Below, one piece after another: positions 13,852 to 34,187 of a stretch of DNA of 40,984 nucleotides. The DNA lies in IMG/VR virus record IMGVR_UViG_3300008625_000022, positions 1 to 40,984 of that record; one strand, written 5' to 3'. The notes under the pieces are model-generated. The model had not been told where the DNA came from and searched no databases. It saw only the letters and a list, made by a program, of their open reading frames with translations. Made by a program: the position numbers and the translations under genes. This DNA comes from a virus. The first letter of the stretch is position 1; every line of letters starts with the position of its first letter.

Positions 13852-13995
13852 ATGGCTGGAATGGCTAAAGTTTTTGAACTTTTAAACAGTATTAATCATA
13901 TATTAACACCTAATCAAGGAACTAGATACCAAAGAGATTCTGGTATGAACGCTAAAATAAAAATGGGTGAAAACGTGGTGGTAAAACTTGGCTAA
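13852..13995 (+). CDS. Hypothetical 47-aa protein
   Basis: A short ORF (AGMAKVFELLNSINHILTPN ... MGENVVVKLG) starts 4 nt after the preceding stop and overlaps the TTG start of the large fibre gene by 8 nt. Tight packing on both sides supports translation. A basic, partly helical peptide, possibly an N-terminal virion anchor split from the fibre; that is speculation. Confidence 0.5.
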   Translation: MAGMAKVFELLNSINHILTPNQGTRYQRDSGMNAKIKMGENVVVKLG

Positions 13996-16522
13996 ACGAA
14001 CAGCAGGCACAGGTTGGGGTAGACACGTTAAAGTTGTAACTGTAGTTGATGATGGTACTTCTGAAGTAGGTACTAACGAGTGGAATGAAGATCTAGACAA
14101 TAAAGGTATTCTTGGTTTCTCACCAGCTAATGCAACAATAACAATAGCTGGAGATGGTACATTAACACCAACAGATAGTATAGTTGTTTGTGCAGCAAAC
14201 AGCAGTACATCAGATACAATTACAAAATTAACAAATACAAATACAAATGAATATGATTTCTTATACTTATTTGCAGATACAGGTGATACAATAACATTAA
14301 CACATACATCAGGCACACCATCAAACGCTGGTGAAGTAGTACTTCTAGGTGAGGCAAACAAAACACTTGATGAGAAAGTTCCAACAATAATAGTTAGAAA
14401 AGGAAATTACTGGTATGAATATGGTGGATCTCCAGTTATAGCTGGTACAGGTCTGTCAAAATCTGCAGCAACTTTGTCAATTGACATGACAGATACAAAC
14501 GCAATTAAAGACGAAGATAATATGTCAAGTGACAGTGCAACACACTTAGCAACACAACAATCAATTAAAGCATATGTAGATTCTCAAGTAACAGCACAGG
14601 ACTTAGATACAGCAGGCGATTCTGGTACAGGTGCTATTGATTTAGACAGTCAATCATTAACAGTATCAGGTGGTTCAGGTATAACTACAACTGCATCAAA
14701 TCAAGCAATAACAATAGATGGTGACAATGCAACCACAAGTGCAAAAGGTGTGGCAAGTTTCAGTTCTGATAACTTTTCAGTAACAAGTGGAGCAGTAACA
14801 ATCAAGGATTCAGGTGTATCAAACGATGAATTAGCAGGTTCAATTTCTAACGATAAGTTAGCAGGTTCAATTTCTAACGATAAGTTAGCAGGTTCAATTT
14901 CTAATGATAAGTTAGCAGGTTCTATCGCAAATTCAAAATTAGTGAATTCAAGTATAACAGTATCAGATGGTTCTAATTCAACAGCAACAGCATTGGGTGG
15001 AACAGTCACATTCAGTGGAACAAGTAATGAAGTAGAAGTAGCAGAAAGTAGTGGAACTGTAACAGTAGGACTACCAAATGATGTAACAATAACAGGTGAT
15101 TTAACAGTAAATGGAACTACAACAACCATTAATTCAACAACATTAGAAGTAGCAGATAAACAAATTGAAATTGCAAAAGTCTCTAGTCCATCAAACTCAA
15201 CAGCAAACGGTGGTGGTATTTTAATTGAAGGTGGTTCTGATGGTGATAAAACAATCACATGGACAAGTGCAACAGGCGACTTTGATATTTCAGAAAACAT
15301 AGACATTGCAAGTGGTAAGGTATTCAAAATTAACGGTACAGAAATATTAGGTGGAACAACATTAGGTTCTACAATAGTATCTTCAAGTCTTACAAGTGTG
15401 GGAACTATTGCAACAGGAACATGGGAAGCAACAGATGTAGCAGTAGCACATGGAGGTACAGGTTCATCAACAGCAGGTGGAGCAAGAACAAACTTAGGTT
15501 TAGTAATAGGTACAGACGTTCAAGCTTACGATGCACAATTAGATAGTATTGCAGCCTTAACAGCTAACCAAGTAGCTGGATTAGTTGATTTAGCAACATT
15601 AGAGGCACCAGCAAGTGACGGTCAATTTATAGTTGCAACAGGAGCTGGAGCATTTGCATATGAATCAGGAGCTACTGTAAGAACTTCATTAGGATTAACT
15701 ATAGGAACACATGTTCAAGCTTATGATGCCCAATTAGACACACTTGCAGCATTAACAGCAAATCAAGTAGGTGGTCTTGTAGACTTGGCAACACTTGAAG
15801 CACCAGCATCAGATGGACAATTCATTGTAGCAACTGGATCTGGAGCATTCGCTTATGAATCAGGTTCAACAGTAAGAACATCGTTAGGACTAGCAATAGG
15901 CACTGATGTTCAAGCTTACGATGCACAGTTAGCTGACGTATCAGGGTTAACTGCTGGTGATGGAAACTTTATTGTAGGAGATGGTTCTAACTTTGTAGCA
16001 GAGTCAGGATCTACAGCAAGGAGTTCATTGGGATTAGGAACTATAGCTACACAAGCAGCAAACAGTGTTAATATAGATGGAGGAGCAATAGACGGTACAA
16101 CTATAGGAGCAAACAGTGCAGGAGCAGTTACAGCAACCCAAGTAGATATCACAGCAGAAGGAGACTTAAGATTACAAGATGCTAGTGGTGGTGAATATGT
16201 AGGATTTGAAGCACCATCAGCAGTAACAACAAGTTATACATTGGAAATGCCAGTAGAAACAGGTTCAGCAGGTGAAGTATTAAAACTATCGTCATCTGCA
16301 AATGTATTGGAATGGGGAAGTGCTGGTGGTGGAGCAACATCAACACATGATTACACATTACAGGCTTACGATTATTCAGGTGGTGGAGCTAGTGGAACTA
16401 CAAGATCAGTTTACATTAGACCATTAAAAACCTCTGGTGGAGCTGAGGACACAAATAATGAAGGTGTCTTTGTCAAAATCAAAAAGAACGGAACAGCAGA
16501 CACAGAAGTGCAGATAGCGTAG
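13988..16522 (+). CDS. Tail fibre protein with phage-type repeats
   Basis: An 844-aa protein starting at TTG. It holds four 9-residue repeats LAGSISNDK (bases 14831-14938), a beta-helix-like middle (GDLTVNGTTTTINSTTLEVA), and a 65-residue tandem repeat RT.LGL.IGT.VQAYDAQLD ... DGQFIVATG.GAFAYESG (15485-15874, with a third partial copy). AYDAQL/LGL repeats of this kind are typical of side tail fibres of bacterial phages. It likely forms a trimeric host-binding fibre. The C-terminus has a charged beta-strand cap. It is inside the long fibre operon. Confidence 0.8.
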   Translation: MAKRTAGTGWGRHVKVVTVVDDGTSEVGTNEWNEDLDNKGILGFSPANATITIAGDGTLTPTDSIVVCAANSSTSDTITKLTNTNTNEYDFLYLFADTGDTITLTHTSGTPSNAGEVVLLGEANKTLDEKVPTIIVRKGNYWYEYGGSPVIAGTGLSKSAATLSIDMTDTNAIKDEDNMSSDSATHLATQQSIKAYVDSQVTAQDLDTAGDSGTGAIDLDSQSLTVSGGSGITTTASNQAITIDGDNATTSAKGVASFSSDNFSVTSGAVTIKDSGVSNDELAGSISNDKLAGSISNDKLAGSISNDKLAGSIANSKLVNSSITVSDGSNSTATALGGTVTFSGTSNEVEVAESSGTVTVGLPNDVTITGDLTVNGTTTTINSTTLEVADKQIEIAKVSSPSNSTANGGGILIEGGSDGDKTITWTSATGDFDISENIDIASGKVFKINGTEILGGTTLGSTIVSSSLTSVGTIATGTWEATDVAVAHGGTGSSTAGGARTNLGLVIGTDVQAYDAQLDSIAALTANQVAGLVDLATLEAPASDGQFIVATGAGAFAYESGATVRTSLGLTIGTHVQAYDAQLDTLAALTANQVGGLVDLATLEAPASDGQFIVATGSGAFAYESGSTVRTSLGLAIGTDVQAYDAQLADVSGLTAGDGNFIVGDGSNFVAESGSTARSSLGLGTIATQAANSVNIDGGAIDGTTIGANSAGAVTATQVDITAEGDLRLQDASGGEYVGFEAPSAVTTSYTLEMPVETGSAGEVLKLSSSANVLEWGSAGGGATSTHDYTLQAYDYSGGGASGTTRSVYIRPLKTSGGAEDTNNEGVFVKIKKNGTADTEVQIA
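14831..14938 (+). repeat. 27-bp coding tandem repeat, four copies
   Basis: Unit begins ttagcaggttcaatttctaa; copies start at 14831, 14858, 14885 and 14912, the last diverged. It encodes LAGSISNDK inside the fibre gene. Confidence 0.85.
15485..15874 (+). repeat. 195-bp coding tandem repeat in fibre gene
   Basis: Two full copies (15485-15679, 15680-15874) and a partial third from 15875, each starting with codons for R-T-x-L-G-L. Copies differ mostly at synonymous sites, so they are old enough to have drifted while the protein was kept. Confidence 0.85.
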
Positions 16523-16534
16523 GTGTTCTAGTAT

Positions 16535-18292
16535 ATGGTAGAATATCTTGACGGTGGTAGAATCCAAGGAAGTTCTACGGCAAACCCAGAAATACAAGGA
16601 TATGCTGGTGGTAATGCTACTTCAACAACACAATCAGCTGGAGGAGGAGGAGCTGGAGGAACAGCAACAGGTTCAGGTAACAAAAATGGTGGAATAGGAA
16701 AAGTAAATCCCATTGTAGGTTCAACTCATGGTGAATCATCAGGTGGTAGTTATTATTTAGCTGGTGGTGGAGGTGGAGCTGGCGAAGCATCAGGTGCATC
16801 AACTGGAGGACTTGGTGGAGGTGGAAACGGTGGCACGACCAATGCTCCAAGTTCAGAACCAACAAGTAGTTATGGTGGTGGAGCTGGTGGAGGTGGTAAT
16901 AGTGGTACTAATTATCCAAACGGTGCATCAGGAGTTGTAATATTAAAATTATTAACATCAGCAAGTTTTAGTTCATCAAATGCTACTTCAACTACAACAG
17001 GTTCATACACTATACTAACATACACTTCAACAAGTTCAAGTTCTTTCACAATATCATCAGGAACAGCAGATGTTCAATATCTTGTTGTAGCTGGAGGTGG
17101 TGCTTCAAAAGATAATTGGGGATATGCAGGAGGAGGTGGAGCTGGAGGATTTAGAACAGGAACTAAAACAGCAATGACTAGTGGCACATATACAGTAACC
17201 GTTGGAGCTGGTGGTGTTGGTGCTGGTTCTTCGACTACACCAGCAAATGGTGGTAATTCAGTATTTGCAGATATAACATCTTTAGGTGGTGGAGGAGGTG
17301 GTAGTTGGATTGTTAATAGTGGTACAGGTTTTGATGGTGGTTCTGGAGGAGGAGCTCAAGGTAATTCAGGTGGAGATGATGTAGGAGGTAGTGGTTATAC
17401 AACAACAACAAATGAAAAAGATTCAATAACAAACGTTCCTGAAAATACACGTTATGAAGAAACAGATACTCGTAAGATATACAGATGGAAATCAACACAA
17501 TTATCACCAAGTTTTCATTATAAATTTGATGAATCATCAGGTAATGTAATAAATCATGGTTCAGTATCAAGTGCAGATCTAACAGTTTCAGGTTTAACAA
17601 GAAGTGTATCAACGCCAAGTGGAATAGGTGATGGTATGAGTACACCTAGTAATAGTTCTGCTGATTATGCACAAAATACATCAAGAGTAAATGATTATAA
17701 ATTCATGCATGATGGAACTACAAAATGGTCAATTACATTTTGGTTATATCCAACAGATTTACCAGATTCGTCTACATGGACAGAAACTATGGTCTTTGGA
17801 AATATTTGGACAGATGATAATGGTATTGGTTTTGCAGTAAGAATGTCATACGATCAATCACCAACTTCATCATCATCAGCTAGAATCCAAACATTAATTG
17901 CAGATGGAAATTCAGGTATGCCTTTGAATGATCAATCACCTAATGGTATGATACCTGAGCTTAATGCTTGGCATTTCTATTGTATAACGTATGATCCAGA
18001 TTTAAGCAGTAATCATTTAACAGTAACAAGAGATGCAGCAACATCAGGGACAGGATTTCATCAGGGTAGTGAAGATAATAATACTTATTCAAGTTCAAAT
18101 CCAACAAGAAAAGTAACATACTTTGCAAGACCAACATCTAGTTATGATGGTGGGATGGCAGGTAGATTAGCACAAGTGATGATTTTTAAAGATAAAATAT
18201 TAACACAAGCAGAAAAGGTTGCACTTTACGCTGGTGGGAATGGAACAACAACTATTGCATTAGAAGAATGGAAAGAGAGAGGTACAGCATAA
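16535..18292 (+). CDS. Gly-rich adhesin with C-terminal LamG domain
   Basis: A 585-aa protein. Residues 1-290 are Gly/Ser/Thr-rich with many GGGG runs (LAGGGGGAGEASGASTGGLG), like Gly-rich tips of phage fibres, interrupted by FTISSGTADVQYLVVAGGG. Around residue 300 is NTRYEETDTRKIYRWKS, a motif that returns in the next two genes. Residues about 325-575 are a LamG/concanavalin-like domain (WSITFWLYPTDLPDS, NAWHFYCITYDPDL, GRLAQVMIFKDKILTQAEK). A receptor-binding virion protein is likely. It is in the fibre operon, 12 nt after the preceding stop. Confidence 0.7.
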   Translation: MVEYLDGGRIQGSSTANPEIQGYAGGNATSTTQSAGGGGAGGTATGSGNKNGGIGKVNPIVGSTHGESSGGSYYLAGGGGGAGEASGASTGGLGGGGNGGTTNAPSSEPTSSYGGGAGGGGNSGTNYPNGASGVVILKLLTSASFSSSNATSTTTGSYTILTYTSTSSSSFTISSGTADVQYLVVAGGGASKDNWGYAGGGGAGGFRTGTKTAMTSGTYTVTVGAGGVGAGSSTTPANGGNSVFADITSLGGGGGGSWIVNSGTGFDGGSGGGAQGNSGGDDVGGSGYTTTTNEKDSITNVPENTRYEETDTRKIYRWKSTQLSPSFHYKFDESSGNVINHGSVSSADLTVSGLTRSVSTPSGIGDGMSTPSNSSADYAQNTSRVNDYKFMHDGTTKWSITFWLYPTDLPDSSTWTETMVFGNIWTDDNGIGFAVRMSYDQSPTSSSSARIQTLIADGNSGMPLNDQSPNGMIPELNAWHFYCITYDPDLSSNHLTVTRDAATSGTGFHQGSEDNNTYSSSNPTRKVTYFARPTSSYDGGMAGRLAQVMIFKDKILTQAEKVALYAGGNGTTTIALEEWKERGTA

Positions 18293-18294
18293 AA

Positions 18295-21200
18295 ATGGCT
18301 ATAGAAAATCTCGGATCAAAACTTTACAGTGGAATTAAAACTGATAGAGTTAGTGATTCACTAGGAAGTTCAGCAGATGGAGCTAATACTGGAATTACAT
18401 TAGTTGATATTAATGATTATGCAACATTTAATGGTAGTAGTAGTTACATATCAACATCAGGAACACAAACCGATACAGATTTCCAAGCTAGTGAATCGTT
18501 TTCAGTAGCATTTTGGTTTAACTCAAGTGATTCAGGTGGTGCTGCTTTTATTGATAGATGGGGAACTCAAAACGGTAGTGGAAATAACGGTTGGTTAATT
18601 TTAAAGGATTCAGGCACAGCTTGTTCATTTAGACTTTCTAGTAATTGGGGTGCTAGTCCACAGGCAGCAATTAGAGTTGTCAGTAGTAGTAATAACGCAT
18701 TTGGTGATGGAAAATGGCATCATTTAGCTGTAACTTATGGTGGTAGTGGTCACACAAGTGTTAAGATATACATTGATGGTGCAGAAGACACAAGTGCATC
18801 AGCTAACATTACAGGTACAGTTGGTTCAATAACATACGGTTTGCCTTTGGAAATAGGTGCATACAGTTCTAGTCATAGTGATAAATATGATGGTTCTATG
18901 AAACAGGTTTTAATTTATAATGATGTAATAACATCAAGTGAAGTGAACACACTATACAATAGTGGAACGCCTGTCACAAGTCCTTCAACATCTAATTTAG
19001 TAGCACGTTATGATCTTGGAACAGATGCAAATGATTCACAGGGAAGTATTAATGGAACAGCAACAGGTGTAACTTGGGTTTCAGATGCTTACAAACTTGG
19101 CACAGGTGCTTATAGTTTTGATGAAAGTTCTAGTGGTAGAGTAGTATTTGGAAGTGCAAGTGATTGGCAATTCTTACATAATTCTAATTCAAAGTGGACA
19201 TTTGCAACGTGGTATAAAAGACCTACCAACTTCGCAGGTTCAATATCAGGTAATTTAACATTTTTAGCAGAAACAACTGATGGTGCTGGACATGGCATAG
19301 GTATAAAATACGATAATAGAGGTGGAACTAATCAGAATCATTTTCTACAAGTTGAAATGATCACGGATAGTAATCAATTAGTTGTTCAGCTACAAAAAAA
19401 TAATTTTTGGGCAGATGATGATGATTGGCATCATCTATGTATTACGTGGGATTCAACTATTGCAAACACTAACATGGTGGTATATTTAGATGGAGTTCAA
19501 GAAGCAACTGCAAATAAAACATCATATGCTCCAACAAATACAGATTCAGGTGATCCATTAACAATAGGTGGTGGTGTAGACGGTCATACTAGATATGGAG
19601 ATTGGACTTTAGACGATATTGGAATTTGGAAACGTGTTCTTACTGCAACAGAAATTTCAGATTTAGTAAATGAAACAGAAGATACACCAACAGTATCAAC
19701 ATTAAATGCAACTAATGGAACAACAAATTGGTCAACAGCTACATCTAAACTAACAAAGTCAGGCAACACAATAACATTTAGTGCAACAGGTGCTAGTAAT
19801 GATGAGGAAATTTACCTTGATTTACAAAATGCAAGTTATTTGGATGGTTCTAATGCCAGCGATGATGCTTGGACATTAAGATTCAAAGCTGATTTCACAT
19901 CTATCGGTGCTGGTGCTAATGCAACACACCAACAACTTCAATTTGGTATCTTTGATGCAACAAATCCTAGTGGTAATAATGGAAGTGGTGATGCCATAAT
20001 ATTTTATCTATCAAGTGCAGGAACCGTTAGTAATGCTGTAAATGGCGTTAATGGTGGAACAGGTGGTATTACATCAACAAACAACACACCTATTGCTTCA
20101 AGTGGTTCTGCCGTCACATATTATATTGAATTACAAAGAACAAGTTCATCAGCTATTCAGGCAAAAGTGTTTAGTGATGAATACGAAACACAGGTCGGTT
20201 CAACATTAAGTAAAACAGGTCTAAGTGGAATAACAGGCTTACGTTATCTAATGGTTAGATTATGGGGTGAAAGTGGTGCAGGGAACGGTGCAGTTGGTTC
20301 TGTCACAGCTATGAAGTTTTGGAATGATAAAACATCTGTAAAAACAATAAACGGTGCATTAGTTTCATCATTGAGTGACAAGTCAGAATTAAAGGCAAAT
20401 TATACTATGGATAGTACAAGTTTGGGTGCAACAGGAACATCAACTACAACTACAAGTGGTGCTACACAACAAGGATCTCAAAGTTCAAGTAATCAAACCA
20501 CAGCTCATGTAACAAGTGGTTCTAATACAGGTTTAAAATTCACATCAACTCACAATGGCACTGGTTCTGCTATTGGAACATTCAATCTTGGTTCAGCATT
20601 GGCATCAAAATGGTTAATACAGGTATCTTTTACAACTGGAAGTAGTTATACAGCTTCTGGAAACGGTATGTTTGCGTTTGGTCTATCTGACAAATCAACA
20701 TATTCTAGTTCAGAACATATGAATACAAACTCTAGTGGTGATACAGTAAATTGGATATATCATATAGGAGACAACAGTACCAATGATAGGAAAGATAGAA
20801 TACGAACAATACTTAATGGTACTGGTTCAGATGGAACAGCATCTGCACAACATTCATGGGAAGATAGTACAACATATTATTATGAAATGAGTTATGATGG
20901 ATCAACAGTAACAGTTCAAAGAAAAACAGATGATACCTATGCAACTAATCACAGTAATGGTGCTGTCACAAAATCAACATCAGGTATAACTGGATTACAA
21001 TATTTCAACTGGGGTTCGACTGATAATGGTGGAAGTCAAGGTGGATTCAATGTAACACTAAATACTATTAAAATTTTTGATGGTATATCATCAAATGTAG
21101 GTTGTAAAAACGACTTTTCAGCAACAAGTGACTTGGATGGATTAACAGGTGTAAGGACAAATTCTATCTTCCAACAAACAGATGATACGCCTTCTTACTG

Positions 21201-22731: not shown

Positions 22732-23985
22732 ATGTCATATCAAAACACATTTCAGCAAACTGTATTTCAGGGAGCTGGAGTATTTCAGGGTGGAATAAGA
22801 ACAGTTGTAGTAGATGAAGATGAGAATATATTACAAAGAAGAAACCTATTCCAAAGAAGTGTTTTTCAAACAAATGTATTTCAGCATAGACCAGCAGATG
22901 ATGTAGATGGTTATGTTAAAGTAATGGAATTGGTTAGACATTCCAATGAGCTACAACAAGTGTTAGAACCTGTAAGTGCCTTCCAAGACTCTGCATTCCA
23001 AGATAATGTATTCCAACAGGAAGCCAAAAAGGGTATTATTAGAGCATTGGGTGCTGTAAAATCTATTGTAGAAATTTTCAATATAACTGATAGTGATTCT
23101 GACAATGCTCATAATAAAGTATTAGGTTTTAATAAATTTATTAATGAGACATTAAGGATTCAAAACATCACAGGTACGTTATCATATAGGGATAGATTCT
23201 TTTTAATTGGTGAAACATTGAATGTCACTGATCTTCCTACAAGACTAAGAGCAAGATTTAGATTTGCAAATGAGGACATGCATATTATTGACTTTGATGG
23301 CAGATTAAAAGGAATAATAAGAGCTATAAATGAAGTAATGCAATTATTGGAACCAGTGAGTGCCTTCCAAAATTCTGCATTCCAAGATAATGTGTTCCAA
23401 ACTTTAGTACGAAAAGGAATAGTAAGGGCTATGGGATTTGCAAGAACAGCACCTATGGAGATTATGAACATATCTGAAGTAGTTCCAAGATTGAGTCTAA
23501 TAATAAGATTTGAAAATGCCGTAGTAAACATTGCAACAGCTACACATAAGGCATTCGGTTATAATAGATTTGGAAATGATAACATTAGTATGAGTGAGAC
23601 AACAGGAAGTCCAAGAGAAATGTCAAGATTTGAAAACGCTGTGGTTAATGTGTCAGAAACACTGGCAAAACAGAGAACTTTAATCAGACGTATAGCTGAA
23701 ACCATGAATTTGGCAGAAGTTCCTTACATATTCAGATTAAGAATAAGAGCAATAGCAGAAACATTAAACATCGCAGAGGCATTAGCCAAACAAAGAAGTT
23801 GGATTATTCGTGTGAATGAAACTGTTAATATTGTAGAGTCATTCTTTAAGAAGAGGATTCATACAATCTCACCAACAAGAAGTACACGAGGATTTAACAG
23901 GGTTAAGAGTTCACGCCTATACAACAGAGTTAGAGGAGCAAAACTATTTAACAGACGAAAATCAACTAAAGGTGCTAGTCGATGA
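22732..23985 (+). CDS. FQ-repeat / 20-residue-repeat protein
   Basis: A 417-aa protein. The N-terminus and two later blocks carry FQxxx pentads (TFQQTVFQGAGVFQG; SAFQDSAFQDNVFQ; SAFQNSAFQDNVFQ). From about residue 250 comes a roughly 20-residue repeat of the form RFENAVVNVSETLAKQRTL / IRRIAETMNLAEVPYIFRLR / IRAIAETLNIAEALAKQRSW / IIRVNETVNIVESFFKKRIH. The C-terminus is very basic (about residues 385-417). FQ pentads occur in marine phage proteins of unknown function. Position among tail genes suggests a virion filament or coat; no enzyme motif. Confidence 0.6.
   Translation: MSYQNTFQQTVFQGAGVFQGGIRTVVVDEDENILQRRNLFQRSVFQTNVFQHRPADDVDGYVKVMELVRHSNELQQVLEPVSAFQDSAFQDNVFQQEAKKGIIRALGAVKSIVEIFNITDSDSDNAHNKVLGFNKFINETLRIQNITGTLSYRDRFFLIGETLNVTDLPTRLRARFRFANEDMHIIDFDGRLKGIIRAINEVMQLLEPVSAFQNSAFQDNVFQTLVRKGIVRAMGFARTAPMEIMNISEVVPRLSLIIRFENAVVNIATATHKAFGYNRFGNDNISMSETTGSPREMSRFENAVVNVSETLAKQRTLIRRIAETMNLAEVPYIFRLRIRAIAETLNIAEALAKQRSWIIRVNETVNIVESFFKKRIHTISPTRSTRGFNRVKSSRLYNRVRGAKLFNRRKSTKGASR
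22963..23016 (+). repeat. 54-bp direct repeat, copy 1
   Basis: Near-identical to 23347-23400; codes for LEPVSAFQDSAFQDNVFQ. A recent internal duplication in the FQ-repeat gene. Confidence 0.8.
23347..23400 (+). repeat. 54-bp direct repeat, copy 2
   Basis: Near-identical to 22963-23016, 384 nt downstream in the same frame; codes for LEPVSAFQNSAFQDNVFQ. Confidence 0.8.
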
Positions 23986-30124: not shown

Positions 30125-30477
30125 TAAAGATCTACATAGATGGGGGAACAAGAGGTTCAAGAATATGTTTAGTAGATAAAACAAATGGTGTCACATATGT
30201 GAAACATAGACATGGTGAATTAACTAATAATGAATTAGAATATCTTGCGTTAGAGTATGCGTTACAATACGTAAACAACAAGCATAGGGATAATTTTATA
30301 ACAATATACAGTGATTCTAAACTCGTTGTTAACCAAATTAACGGTGATTGGAGAATAACAACAGAACATCTCATACCATTATATGAAAAATGTATGAAAA
30401 AAATGAGTGATAGAATAAAATTAAAATGGGTCAGCAGAGATTTTAATCTTGCTGGTCATGTTCTTGAGAAACCTTAG
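30121..30477 (+). CDS. rnhA: Ribonuclease HI
   Basis: A 118-aa enzyme that removes RNA from RNA-DNA hybrids, for example primers. Start GTG overlaps the preceding stop. Catalytic residues: D7 (YIDGG), E40 (TNNELE) and D65 (YSDSK). The fourth acidic position, usually D in NxAD, reads NLAGH here, a variant I recall from some RNases H. The C-terminal NLAGHVLEKP is encoded in a 35-bp overlap with the convergent gene 30443-30691. Shorter than bacterial RNase HI (about 155 aa) and without the basic handle. Confidence 0.85.
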   Translation: MIKIYIDGGTRGSRICLVDKTNGVTYVKHRHGELTNNELEYLALEYALQYVNNKHRDNFITIYSDSKLVVNQINGDWRITTEHLIPLYEKCMKKMSDRIKLKWVSRDFNLAGHVLEKP

Positions 30478-30691
30478 TTGGGTATGTTGTTTTTGGCTCA
30501 GCGTTCTCTGGTAACTTATGATGTTCTTCATAGAAATCAACCATCTTTTTAAATAAAACTAAATCACTTTCTGAACGTTGACCTGACTTTGTTTTTTTAA
30601 CATACTCTGCATGTCTCCTAAATCTTTCTTTATCATTCCAATCAACTGCTATTGTGGTGTTCTTTGCGTTAATTATTCTTCTCCTAGCCAT
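30443..30691 (-). CDS. Ribbon-helix-helix-like DNA-binding protein (probable)
   Basis: An 82-aa basic protein: a strand (NTTIAVDWND), helix A (KERFRRHAEYVKK), turn, helix B (SESDLVLFKKMVDFYEEHH), then a polar tail. This is the order of ribbon-helix-helix repressors, although the A-B loop is longer than usual. Leaderless promoter 29 nt upstream. Its last 11 codons overlap the 3' end of RNase HI on the other strand, so the two transcripts converge. It may regulate early genes; target unknown. Confidence 0.55.
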   Translation of the reverse strand: MARRRIINAKNTTIAVDWNDKERFRRHAEYVKKTKSGQRSESDLVLFKKMVDFYEEHHKLPENAEPKTTYPTKVSQEHDQQD

Positions 30692-31639: not shown

Positions 31640-31987
31640 TTATGGCTTAGGAACCTCCCACATGCTAAGGGCAACCATTTCTTTGCCTGACCCTGTAGCA
31701 GTTTTGGATGTAACCCAAGCATTCATACCATCGGAAGCATCCTTTTCAAGACATTTCTCTAATGCGAACTGCCAATGTTCAGAACCAACTTGACCAACTA
31801 CAACTTTACCATATGTATGAAAGTCACCCTCTTTACAATGAAGTTCAGCAATAGGTGCTCCTACACTTTCAACATCTTTTGTCTTCATTGACAAAACATG
31901 AAGTAAAGTTCCTTTTGGTACAGAAGATAAGTTCTTACTATCTGAAAAGTTACTTTCAATATCTAGTACTTCTGATACATTTACCAT
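31640..31987 (-). CDS. Hypothetical 115-aa protein, possible OB-fold
   Basis: A mostly beta protein: LLHVLSMKTKDVESVGAPIA, HTYGKVVVGQVGSEHWQFAL, AWVTSKTATGSGKEMVALSM. The strand pattern and the closing GKEMVALSMWE recall small OB-fold single-strand-binding proteins, but nothing is diagnostic. It has its own leaderless promoter in the reverse cluster. If it is an SSB it would complement MCM and RadA, for which no other SSB is seen. Confidence 0.45.
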   Translation of the reverse strand: MVNVSEVLDIESNFSDSKNLSSVPKGTLLHVLSMKTKDVESVGAPIAELHCKEGDFHTYGKVVVGQVGSEHWQFALEKCLEKDASDGMNAWVTSKTATGSGKEMVALSMWEVPKP

Positions 31988-32035: not shown

Positions 32036-32686
32036 TTATACTCTTATGAGTAATTCCAATATACCTTTGAGAAGTTTCATTATCTCTATTCTAAGGTGGA
32101 GGATGGCTGTCTCTGTTGTATCTTCTACTGTATCTTCTATCTCATCGGTAACAGAATCAAATGGATTACCTCTTGGTTCAGGTGTTTGTGTATTAGCACC
32201 AAATATTTCATACGATGCAACTCTTATTCCATCTTTATATGCTACCATTTCAGTTCCCTCATTCTTCCAACCAGTGAATCCGTTTTCATGTGGGTCGGTT
32301 TCTATTAATACCGTTGGTGGTGTAACAGTTGCATTCTGTGGTATTGTAACAACTGGTTCTGGAACTGGACAGTTGACAACATCAAGTGTGAATATATCAT
32401 CAATGTAGAATGTTGAATCAAACTTGTATGTATTACAAGTATCAAATGTATGTGTGATTGATGGGTTATCATGGTTCAAGAAGTTATGCCCACCATACCA
32501 TGGATTAGAAACATCATGTGCTTCACCATCTCTAATAATGAATGTCACTTTGTCGCCATGTGTTGCATTAAGATATTGTGGTGTAAAACCATCCTCTATG
32601 CTTAACTCTACTGTGAATTCTTCTGCATATGCAAACCCAATTAATGGTGCTAATAGAAGAAGACCAATAATAGTTATTGTTTTCAT
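32036..32686 (-). CDS. Secreted cupredoxin-like protein lacking the copper ligands
   Basis: A 216-aa protein with an N-terminal signal peptide (TITIIGLLLLAPLIGFAYA). Residues 23-106 read as a plastocyanin/cupredoxin domain: FTPQYLNATHGDKVTFI, EAHDV (H57, first ligand), ITHTFDTCNTYKF. In cupredoxins the last loop is YKYYCTFHPWM; here it is YKFDSTFYIDD, so Cys becomes S91 and His becomes Y94 and Met is gone. C84 and C106 could form a disulfide. A Pro/Thr linker and second domain end in LHLRIEIMKLLKGILELLI, perhaps a membrane-associated helix. Thaumarchaeal hosts have many cupredoxins, so host origin is likely. Confidence 0.7.
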   Translation of the reverse strand: MKTITIIGLLLLAPLIGFAYAEEFTVELSIEDGFTPQYLNATHGDKVTFIIRDGEAHDVSNPWYGGHNFLNHDNPSITHTFDTCNTYKFDSTFYIDDIFTLDVVNCPVPEPVVTIPQNATVTPPTVLIETDPHENGFTGWKNEGTEMVAYKDGIRVASYEIFGANTQTPEPRGNPFDSVTDEIEDTVEDTTETAILHLRIEIMKLLKGILELLIRV

Positions 32687-32717: not shown

Positions 32718-32882
32718 TTATTGGAGATTGATTTGATTCTTTTTACAGAATAAAACTATTTCCAAAGAAGATTTTTCTACCATGTCTAGAACTTTGTTAT
32801 GAAGTGCAACTAATTCCTTATACTTTTTTAGTAACTCATCGAAAGTTAACTCTGGTTTTTTATCTTGTTTCTTTTTACTCAT
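32718..32882 (-). CDS. Hypothetical coiled-coil microprotein, 54 aa
   Basis: Reads MSKKKQDKKPELTFDELLKK then YKELVALHNKVLDMVEKSSL, a basic head followed by a single amphipathic helix. Its ATG overlaps the stop of the upstream gene by 8 nt, so it is the second gene of a pair. Probably an adaptor or dimeric helix; no family. Confidence 0.55.
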   Translation of the reverse strand: MSKKKQDKKPELTFDELLKKYKELVALHNKVLDMVEKSSLEIVLFCKKNQINLQ

Positions 32883-33270
32883 CTTGTACCCTCATAAGAT
32901 GTGATAATGCAATTAATTGATCTAAAATTTTAGAACGTATCTGTCCAAACACATGTGAGTTAACATCCTGTTCAGGATAATATGATTTAGCTAGAGCATT
33001 AGCAGTTACAAAAAACATTTGGTGATGCTCACCTATCTCTTTTATACTATCGGATGCAACTATCTCTGGTATTTTTGCTACAATTGTCTCTTCACTCTTC
33101 TTTTGATATGAGTTTCTTGTATCTAATTTACCACCCTGTTCATCAAAACATTCCTTTTCACTACATATTGCTTTAGGTAATTTCTGATAAAAAATTGATT
33201 CGCCTATAGCCCAATCAGCACCACATATTTTACAATTACCTACAAACTTTGCCTTTATAGTTGTACCCAT
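32875..33270 (-). CDS. Zinc-finger protein with helical C-terminus
   Basis: A 131-aa protein beginning TTIKAKFVGNCKICGADWAI, with AICSEKECFDE next: a C-x2-C...C-x4-C zinc ribbon of the kind KA.F.G.C..CG..I..Ge found in many phage proteins. The C-terminal half is helical (NSHVFGQIRSKILDQLIALS). ATG 33270 is chosen over an upstream GTG (33288) because the TATA octamer is 29 nt from it. Confidence 0.6.
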   Translation of the reverse strand: MGTTIKAKFVGNCKICGADWAIGESIFYQKLPKAICSEKECFDEQGGKLDTRNSYQKKSEETIVAKIPEIVASDSIKEIGEHHQMFFVTANALAKSYYPEQDVNSHVFGQIRSKILDQLIALSHLMRVQDE

Positions 33271-33291
33271 ATAGATGGTTTTTAACACCTC

Positions 33292-33329: not shown

Positions 33330-34187
33330 ATGAACATATTAAGATTAGTATCTATAGTATTGTTAGTATCTTCATTATCAACAGTATCTTTAGTAACAGC
33401 ATTTGGTCAATATCCACAAAATGGTGATAAGTATGAGACCCTTGGAGTTAGACATAATACAAATCCACATGTGTGTTTATTTGAACCTGATACAAGTAGG
33501 GTGGATTATATCTATTGGACTAATGTTCAATATCAGTCTTGGAAAGCATTATTAGATTGGCAAATAGCAATGACTGAATTTGCACCTGAAGGTGATTGGT
33601 CGATGAGAATTCATAGCACAGTTCCTTTTGAAGAACATGAGAATAAAACCCCTGATGATTATAGACATTGTACTGTTTTCTTAACATATGAATATGAGAA
33701 TACAGATAATGATAGTCAAGCACTTGGTCATGCAGGTGTTGATTTTAGAAAAAGTTCCCATAAGTTTTTTTACATAACAGTTTTCTTACATCATACACAA
33801 CATAATAATATAGTATTAAATTTAGAAGATGCAAAGAAAAACCCAGAGACAGGTCTTACTGAATTCACACTTACTCTAGCAAAGAAAGAGTTACCTCTTA
33901 ATGCAGTCTATAATATAGTCCTTCATGAGTTCGGTCATGGGTTAGGATTAAGACATTATGAAGCTGGTGAGTTTCCAGAAGCTAAAGGATTTGAACATTT
34001 ACGTTCAGCTATGACACCATCGTTAGACCCATTCAAAACGGATCAGGTCTTTGAAGTTACTATCTCTGATAAATTTATGTTATCACAAATCTATGGTATG
34101 GATGGTTTTAGTAAACCAAATCCAGTATGGTTACCTGACCACTGTCTCTTTATTAGAGGAGGTCTTGAATCAAATGGGTGTTATTAG
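33330..34187 (+). CDS. Secreted matrixin-like zinc metalloprotease (metzincin)
   Basis: A 285-aa protein with a signal peptide (RLVSIVLLVSSLSTVSLVTA). The zinc motif HEFGHGLGLRH (H199, H203, H209; catalytic E200) is the exact HExxHxxGxxH of metzincins, and SAMTP (M228) is the Met-turn. The N-terminal QYPQNGDKYETLGVRHN ... VCLFEPDTS resembles secreted proteins I know from ammonia-oxidising archaea, so the gene was probably acquired from a host. It should cleave proteins outside the cell: S-layer, other surface protein, or those of competitors. The active site is complete. Confidence 0.8.
   Translation: MNILRLVSIVLLVSSLSTVSLVTAFGQYPQNGDKYETLGVRHNTNPHVCLFEPDTSRVDYIYWTNVQYQSWKALLDWQIAMTEFAPEGDWSMRIHSTVPFEEHENKTPDDYRHCTVFLTYEYENTDNDSQALGHAGVDFRKSSHKFFYITVFLHHTQHNNIVLNLEDAKKNPETGLTEFTLTLAKKELPLNAVYNIVLHEFGHGLGLRHYEAGEFPEAKGFEHLRSAMTPSLDPFKTDQVFEVTISDKFMLSQIYGMDGFSKPNPVWLPDHCLFIRGGLESNGCY

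Follow-up and report, generated by a model that had tools for sequence, protein, structure and literature searches.

The window, a stretch of 40,984 nucleotides from IMG/VR virus record IMGVR_UViG_3300008625_000022, contains on its minus strand a gene, here called P0001, for a secreted cupredoxin-like protein that lacks the copper site. A check of the open reading frame and its translation showed that it runs from ATG to stop and encodes 216 residues. The translation begins with MKTITIIGLLLLAPLIGFAYA, followed directly by EEFTVELSIEDGFTPQYLNATHGDKVTFIIRDGEAHDVSNPWYGGHNFLNHDNPSITHTFDTCNTYKFDSTFYIDDIFTLDVVNCPV. Read from the sequence, the N-terminus is a typical Sec signal peptide, MKTITIIGLLLLAPLIGFAYA, with an AxA site placing the cut between AYA and EE. 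Secretion of P0001 by this signal peptide is well supported, and cleavage of the peptide and a location at the cell surface would be expected to follow. In a single-sequence AlphaFold2 model the C-terminal helix has a local pLDDT of about 60-84. The positions of P0001, its parts, and the surrounding genes are collected in Table 1.

Table 1. P0001, its parts, and neighboring genes in the window
Feature	Position	Strand	Basis
82-residue protein, conserved cassette neighbor	30443..30691	-	synteny
115-residue protein, conserved cassette neighbor	31640..31987	-	synteny
P0001, secreted copper-less cupredoxin-like protein, 216 residues	32036..32686	-	open reading frame and translation; family by profile
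C-terminal helix, residues 188-215, where sister proteins have a coiled coil	32042..32125	-	single-sequence model
Cupredoxin-like domain, residues 22-108	32363..32623	-	hhalign against canonical cupredoxins, with shuffles; family profile
Cys106, probable disulfide partner of Cys84	32369..32371	-	covariation in the family
Tyr94, in place of the second copper His (relatives have Phe, Tyr or Ser)	32405..32407	-	alignment
Ser91, in place of the copper Cys (relatives have Asp)	32414..32416	-	alignment, hhalign
Cys84, probable disulfide partner of Cys106	32435..32437	-	covariation in the family
His57, the sole copper ligand position kept; 11 of 11 family members	32516..32518	-	alignment
Signal peptide, residues 1-21 (MKTITIIGLLLLAPLIGFAYA), AxA cleavage motif	32624..32686	-	read from the sequence; similar N-terminus in sister viral proteins
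137-residue CxxC protein, conserved cassette neighbor	32875..33288	-	synteny
Secreted metalloprotease with HEFGHGLGLRH, proposed partner	33330..34187	+	motif; co-occurrence in sister viruses

The window comes from a tailed virus, with a major head protein, a terminase and an MCM helicase that match PHROGs. An identical copy of the P0001 gene is found in the 56.7-kb IMG/VR contig IMGVR_UViG_3300008952_000057, which matches the window at 99.7-100% in a circularly permuted order. The two records are the same virus and together imply a genome of about 60 kb; positions 17479-21105 of the window are absent from the second contig. Relatives of TerL occur in 5 of 250 genomes of the host family, with 36-52% identity in the best three, and therefore support an ammonia-oxidizing archaeal host. 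The host family searched is probably the Nitrosopumilaceae, judging from its Nitrosopelagicus centre genome. In the tail region, plus-strand open reading frames at 13988-16522 and 22732-23985 translate to proteins with internal repeats, the repeat units being GSISNDKLA; FQ.SVFQDNVFQ and ET.NI.E.

Single-sequence searches with P0001 gave no significant match in Pfam, PHROGs, the PDB or phage records. The protein does not rise above the curated Pfam cut-off for PF00127, and NCBIfam returned a sub-threshold pseudoazurin match to residues 34-61 (E 0.08). Profile comparisons were more informative. Against a profile of 17 canonical thaumarchaeal cupredoxins, taken from hosts of this kind, the P0001 domain alone had an hhalign score of 37.9 (E 7e-7), compared with a mean of 11.1 and a maximum of 20.6 for 200 shuffled controls, so that sequence homology is supported over the region that forms the Greek-key beta domain in the superfamily. 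An alignment of six members of the P0001 family scored 56.2 against the canonical cupredoxins, with 200 column shuffles at or below 19.1 and the reversed alignment at 12.7. A PDB search with an 11-member family profile produced 29 matches below E 5, none individually significant and all cupredoxins (plastocyanin, amicyanin, pseudoazurin or nitrous-oxide reductase). The Copper-bind family (PF00127) is touched weakly by three of six family members, the best at E 0.01. AlphaFold2 gave poor models for single sequences (pLDDT 43 and 49 in two models), and Foldseek with the better of these returned no matches; because of this poor structure prediction, the cupredoxin fold was assigned from sequence homology. 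The poor models and the lack of a significant single-sequence match could mean that P0001 is not a cupredoxin, its likeness being that of any secreted small beta protein. We consider this very improbable given a real score far above the shuffled controls, PDB profile matches confined to cupredoxins, and the weak contacts of relatives with Copper-bind. Judged by these comparisons, the kinship of the domain to cupredoxins is more than chance. The first-pass annotation had proposed a secreted cupredoxin-like domain and a comparison with host cupredoxins; the hhalign result from that comparison, together with the AxA signal peptide, bears the proposal out. Matches to P0001 residues 92-141 in four host contigs (L072, L073, L075, L097; E about 1e-3 to 1e-2) proved to lie opposite plastocyanin genes, on the antisense strand, and were discarded as chance.

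The closest canonical host cupredoxins end in FTFYCRYHLPVM (FYCRYHLPVM). Alignment to them puts S91 of P0001 on the Cys and Y94 on the second His, and hhalign agrees on S91 as the Cys position. Where a type-1 site has His, Cys, His and Met, P0001 has H57, S91, Y94 and no Met in the domain, which is the reading given in the first-pass annotation. The same loss is seen throughout the family. The Cys position is occupied by Asp or Ser in 11 of 11 members and the loop Met is present in none of the 11; 10 members extend as far as the second His position, and each has Phe, Tyr or Ser there, the eleventh having lost this position to a contig end. Glu55, His57, Ser60 and Pro62 are kept in all 11 in the family alignment, so that every member combines an ExHxxSxP motif with Asp or Ser for Cys and has no Met, and none that extends to the second His position has a His there. 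That P0001 has lost its copper site is well supported by these alignments, and electron transfer by type-1 copper is excluded by the sequence. The survey of homologues suggested at the outset supports the loss itself and, through the missing ligands, the view that P0001 is probably not an electron-carrying metabolic gene.

The invariance of Glu55 and His57 in all 11 members, despite the lost copper ligands, could reflect a different metal site, for example one binding zinc or copper through His57 with Glu55, an Asp or another His, and serving in metal scavenging or in structure. The P0001 domain has further His residues at 67, 72 and 79, but these are not conserved and no known metal motif was recognized, and we regard such a site as rather improbable. 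Seven members have both Cys84 and Cys106, three have neither, and none has just one of them (the remaining member is truncated at a contig end). Because the two covary in this way, P0001 is likely to be held by a C84-C106 disulfide, as had been suggested when the gene was first described. Four sister viruses have a second Cys pair, in the pattern HC[IV]SDP...ESC.

The copper-free family is found in the window's virus, in five other IMG/VR viral contigs (3300037585_003327, 3300032278_000021, 3300007513_000041, 3300035214_000175 and 3300002231_004827, located by profile and other scans), and in 5 of 250 Nitrosopumilaceae-type genomes, where one member is on a 1.36-Mb contig. The member count is a lower bound because IMG/VR was surveyed with short patterns. 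Sister viruses with the domain, among them the TerL-sister contigs L004 and L008, were recovered by profile only; the family escaped detection both in a phmmer run on the TerL sister loci and in a single-protein search covering 32 sister records. In a tree of 13 domains the family separates from two canonical cupredoxins (100/99); the branch leading to P0001 is long, and the tree favors neither direction between virus and host. In one host protein the copper-free domain comes immediately after a plastocyanin domain that retains its Cys, His and Met, so copper-binding-type and copper-free domains coexist in one polypeptide. A scan of IMG/VR with two short patterns found no canonical thaumarchaeal plastocyanins, and full-text literature searches gave no earlier description of the P0001 family.

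On this distribution, loss of the copper site appears to predate P0001 and defines a family common to viruses and hosts. A recent, virus-specific decay of a host electron carrier does not agree with a loss present in 11 of 11 members, chromosomal host proteins included. The same result bears on the suggestion that P0001 is a decoy or competitor that occupies host cupredoxin partners and disturbs electron flow in ammonia oxidation. The hosts do have many cupredoxins (2 to 23 matches per genome in 40 of 41 genomes), and the P0001 domain is distantly related to them. Because host proteins show the same loss, however, it did not arise as a viral weapon, and conservation is centered on the ExHxxSxP loop and not on any docking face identified. 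The decoy idea from the first-pass annotation is not sustained, and we think it quite improbable.

The relatives of P0001 point to another kind of function. In the viral relatives a signal peptide is followed by one copper-free domain, a coiled coil, and a C-terminus of the form RDxWKxLAxNWYxVAxEQLxVMxxVLGL. The host homologues are signal-peptide-bearing, multi-domain coiled-coil proteins; two follow this layout and add extra beta domains, and a third runs off the end of its contig. The C-terminal module is conserved on 15 IMG/VR contigs with differing N-terminal heads. Secreted viral coiled-coil proteins with one conserved C-terminus in L172-L186 and L198-L200 have at least three kinds of N-terminal head. 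Two of the other head types looked cupredoxin-like by eye, and scores of 19-21 against canonical cupredoxins, at the edge of the shuffle noise, led us not to make this assignment. P0001 itself is a head only. The conserved 38-residue NWYxVA C-terminus has no match in the window record, and an equivalence between the C-terminal helix of P0001 and this module is not supported (hhalign 8.5, within the shuffles). Because P0001 is without the coiled coil and the conserved C-terminus, the stalk argument applies to it by kinship only.

Copies of the host stalk protein (L156, L157, L188 and L189) adjoin a divergently transcribed gene of a single family, MDTVHTM...VHIAPVGFEIDR, which is CARF-like by reading. 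These host islands also hold DnaJ-like, TPR and restriction-like genes.

The stalk architecture could also belong to a virion component, either a receptor-binding fiber or a decoration, with a coiled-coil stalk carrying beta heads that can be exchanged, so that a change of head sets the host range. The occurrence of one C-terminal module with different heads on 15 viral contigs would suit this, as would the position of a stalk gene directly upstream of a TerL-like gene in another virus group (L175 and L180). A Sec signal peptide is, however, at odds with cytoplasmic assembly of a tailed virion, the same architecture occurs in host chromosomes, and P0001 has neither stalk nor conserved C-terminus. 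We consider a virion role for P0001 unlikely.

The gene neighborhood offers a further clue. A P0001-type gene lies amid the same small genes within the TerL-MCM block of the window and of L008, L004, L178 and L186. Of the blocks holding both neighboring small genes, 13 encode a secreted HExxHxxGxxH protease and 17 do not; a P0001-type gene is present in 5 of the former and 0 of the latter (Fisher 0.009; 0.02 after one near-identical pair is collapsed). These P values are optimistic because the genomes compared are related. The window's metalloprotease has a metzincin-type zinc motif and weak Pfam matches, to matrixin/M66 only. It is conserved in many sister viruses, and the zinc motif is intact in every copy found. 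We regard this enzyme as a candidate, putative agent of attack on the archaeal surface.

Because the copper-free domain also occurs in related viruses and in host surface-type proteins, P0001 is probably meant for cell-surface binding. Among the roles first proposed for it, that of an adhesin fits best, since in the relatives a coiled-coil stalk bears the domain at its end. This head-on-stalk design, together with the association with a secreted protease, suggests that P0001 binds to a surface during infection. Our preferred reading, to which we assign a probability of about 0.5, is that P0001 is a secreted, disulfide-held, copper-free binding module at the host surface and not an electron carrier. 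The protein would be exported by the host Sec pathway. Its type-1 copper site would have disappeared earlier, in an ancestor that it has in common with other viruses and with ammonia-oxidizing archaeal proteins of the surface type, and the disulfide would hold the cupredoxin-fold domain. In the sister viruses the domain would cap a coiled-coil stalk whose C-terminus is conserved, and P0001 would be a shorter form with a C-terminal helix of its own. P0001 may dock to host surface proteins, of the S-layer or otherwise, and together with the neighboring metalloprotease may alter the surface during infection, perhaps for release or for blocking a second virus.

When a virus of nitrifying archaea has a cupredoxin-like gene, it is easily taken for a helper in ammonia oxidation. 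The family-wide loss of ligands, also seen in host proteins, rules out electron transfer by a type-1 copper site for one such family, and points to a surface protein common to viruses and hosts. To our knowledge, very little is known about the ways in which these viruses cope with the surface of archaeal cells, and the family provides a testable handle on this question. A bolder and more doubtful proposal is that tailed viruses of ammonia-oxidizing archaea and their hosts share the copper-free cupredoxin domain as an exchangeable head of secreted stalk proteins, and that with the metalloprotease it remodels the S-layer, as a surface-attack or superinfection-exclusion module not described before. 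If this were true, a respiratory fold would have been turned into a surface ligand.

Several known systems resemble P0001 in part. Like the plastocyanin/azurin blue copper proteins (PF00127) of Nitrosopumilaceae-type genomes, it is secreted and has a homologous beta domain with the first His and the strand pattern up to the last loop; unlike them, it is without the copper Cys, the second His and the Met, and some of its relatives match PF00127 weakly. The secreted coiled-coil proteins with the NWYxVA C-terminus include sister viral members that share the N-terminal copper-free domain, whereas P0001 has neither the coiled coil nor that C-terminus. Thaumarchaeal integrated elements carry genes for plastocyanin (PetE) and multicopper oxidase, and their metabolic genes have been discussed as auxiliary (PMC6563490). 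These genes likewise are related to cupredoxins and sit on mobile elements of this type of host, but unlike such auxiliary metabolic genes the copper-less family cannot form a type-1 copper site. In plants, the early nodulin-like proteins (ENODL) are copper-less phytocyanins, which like P0001 are secreted and have a cupredoxin-type domain with a disulfide and no copper ligands (PMC10048054). The ENODL differ in being plant proteins, mostly arabinogalactan-type chimeras, with no link to viruses or to coiled-coil stalks. The likeness would be one of design only, and offers a precedent for copper-free secreted cupredoxins.
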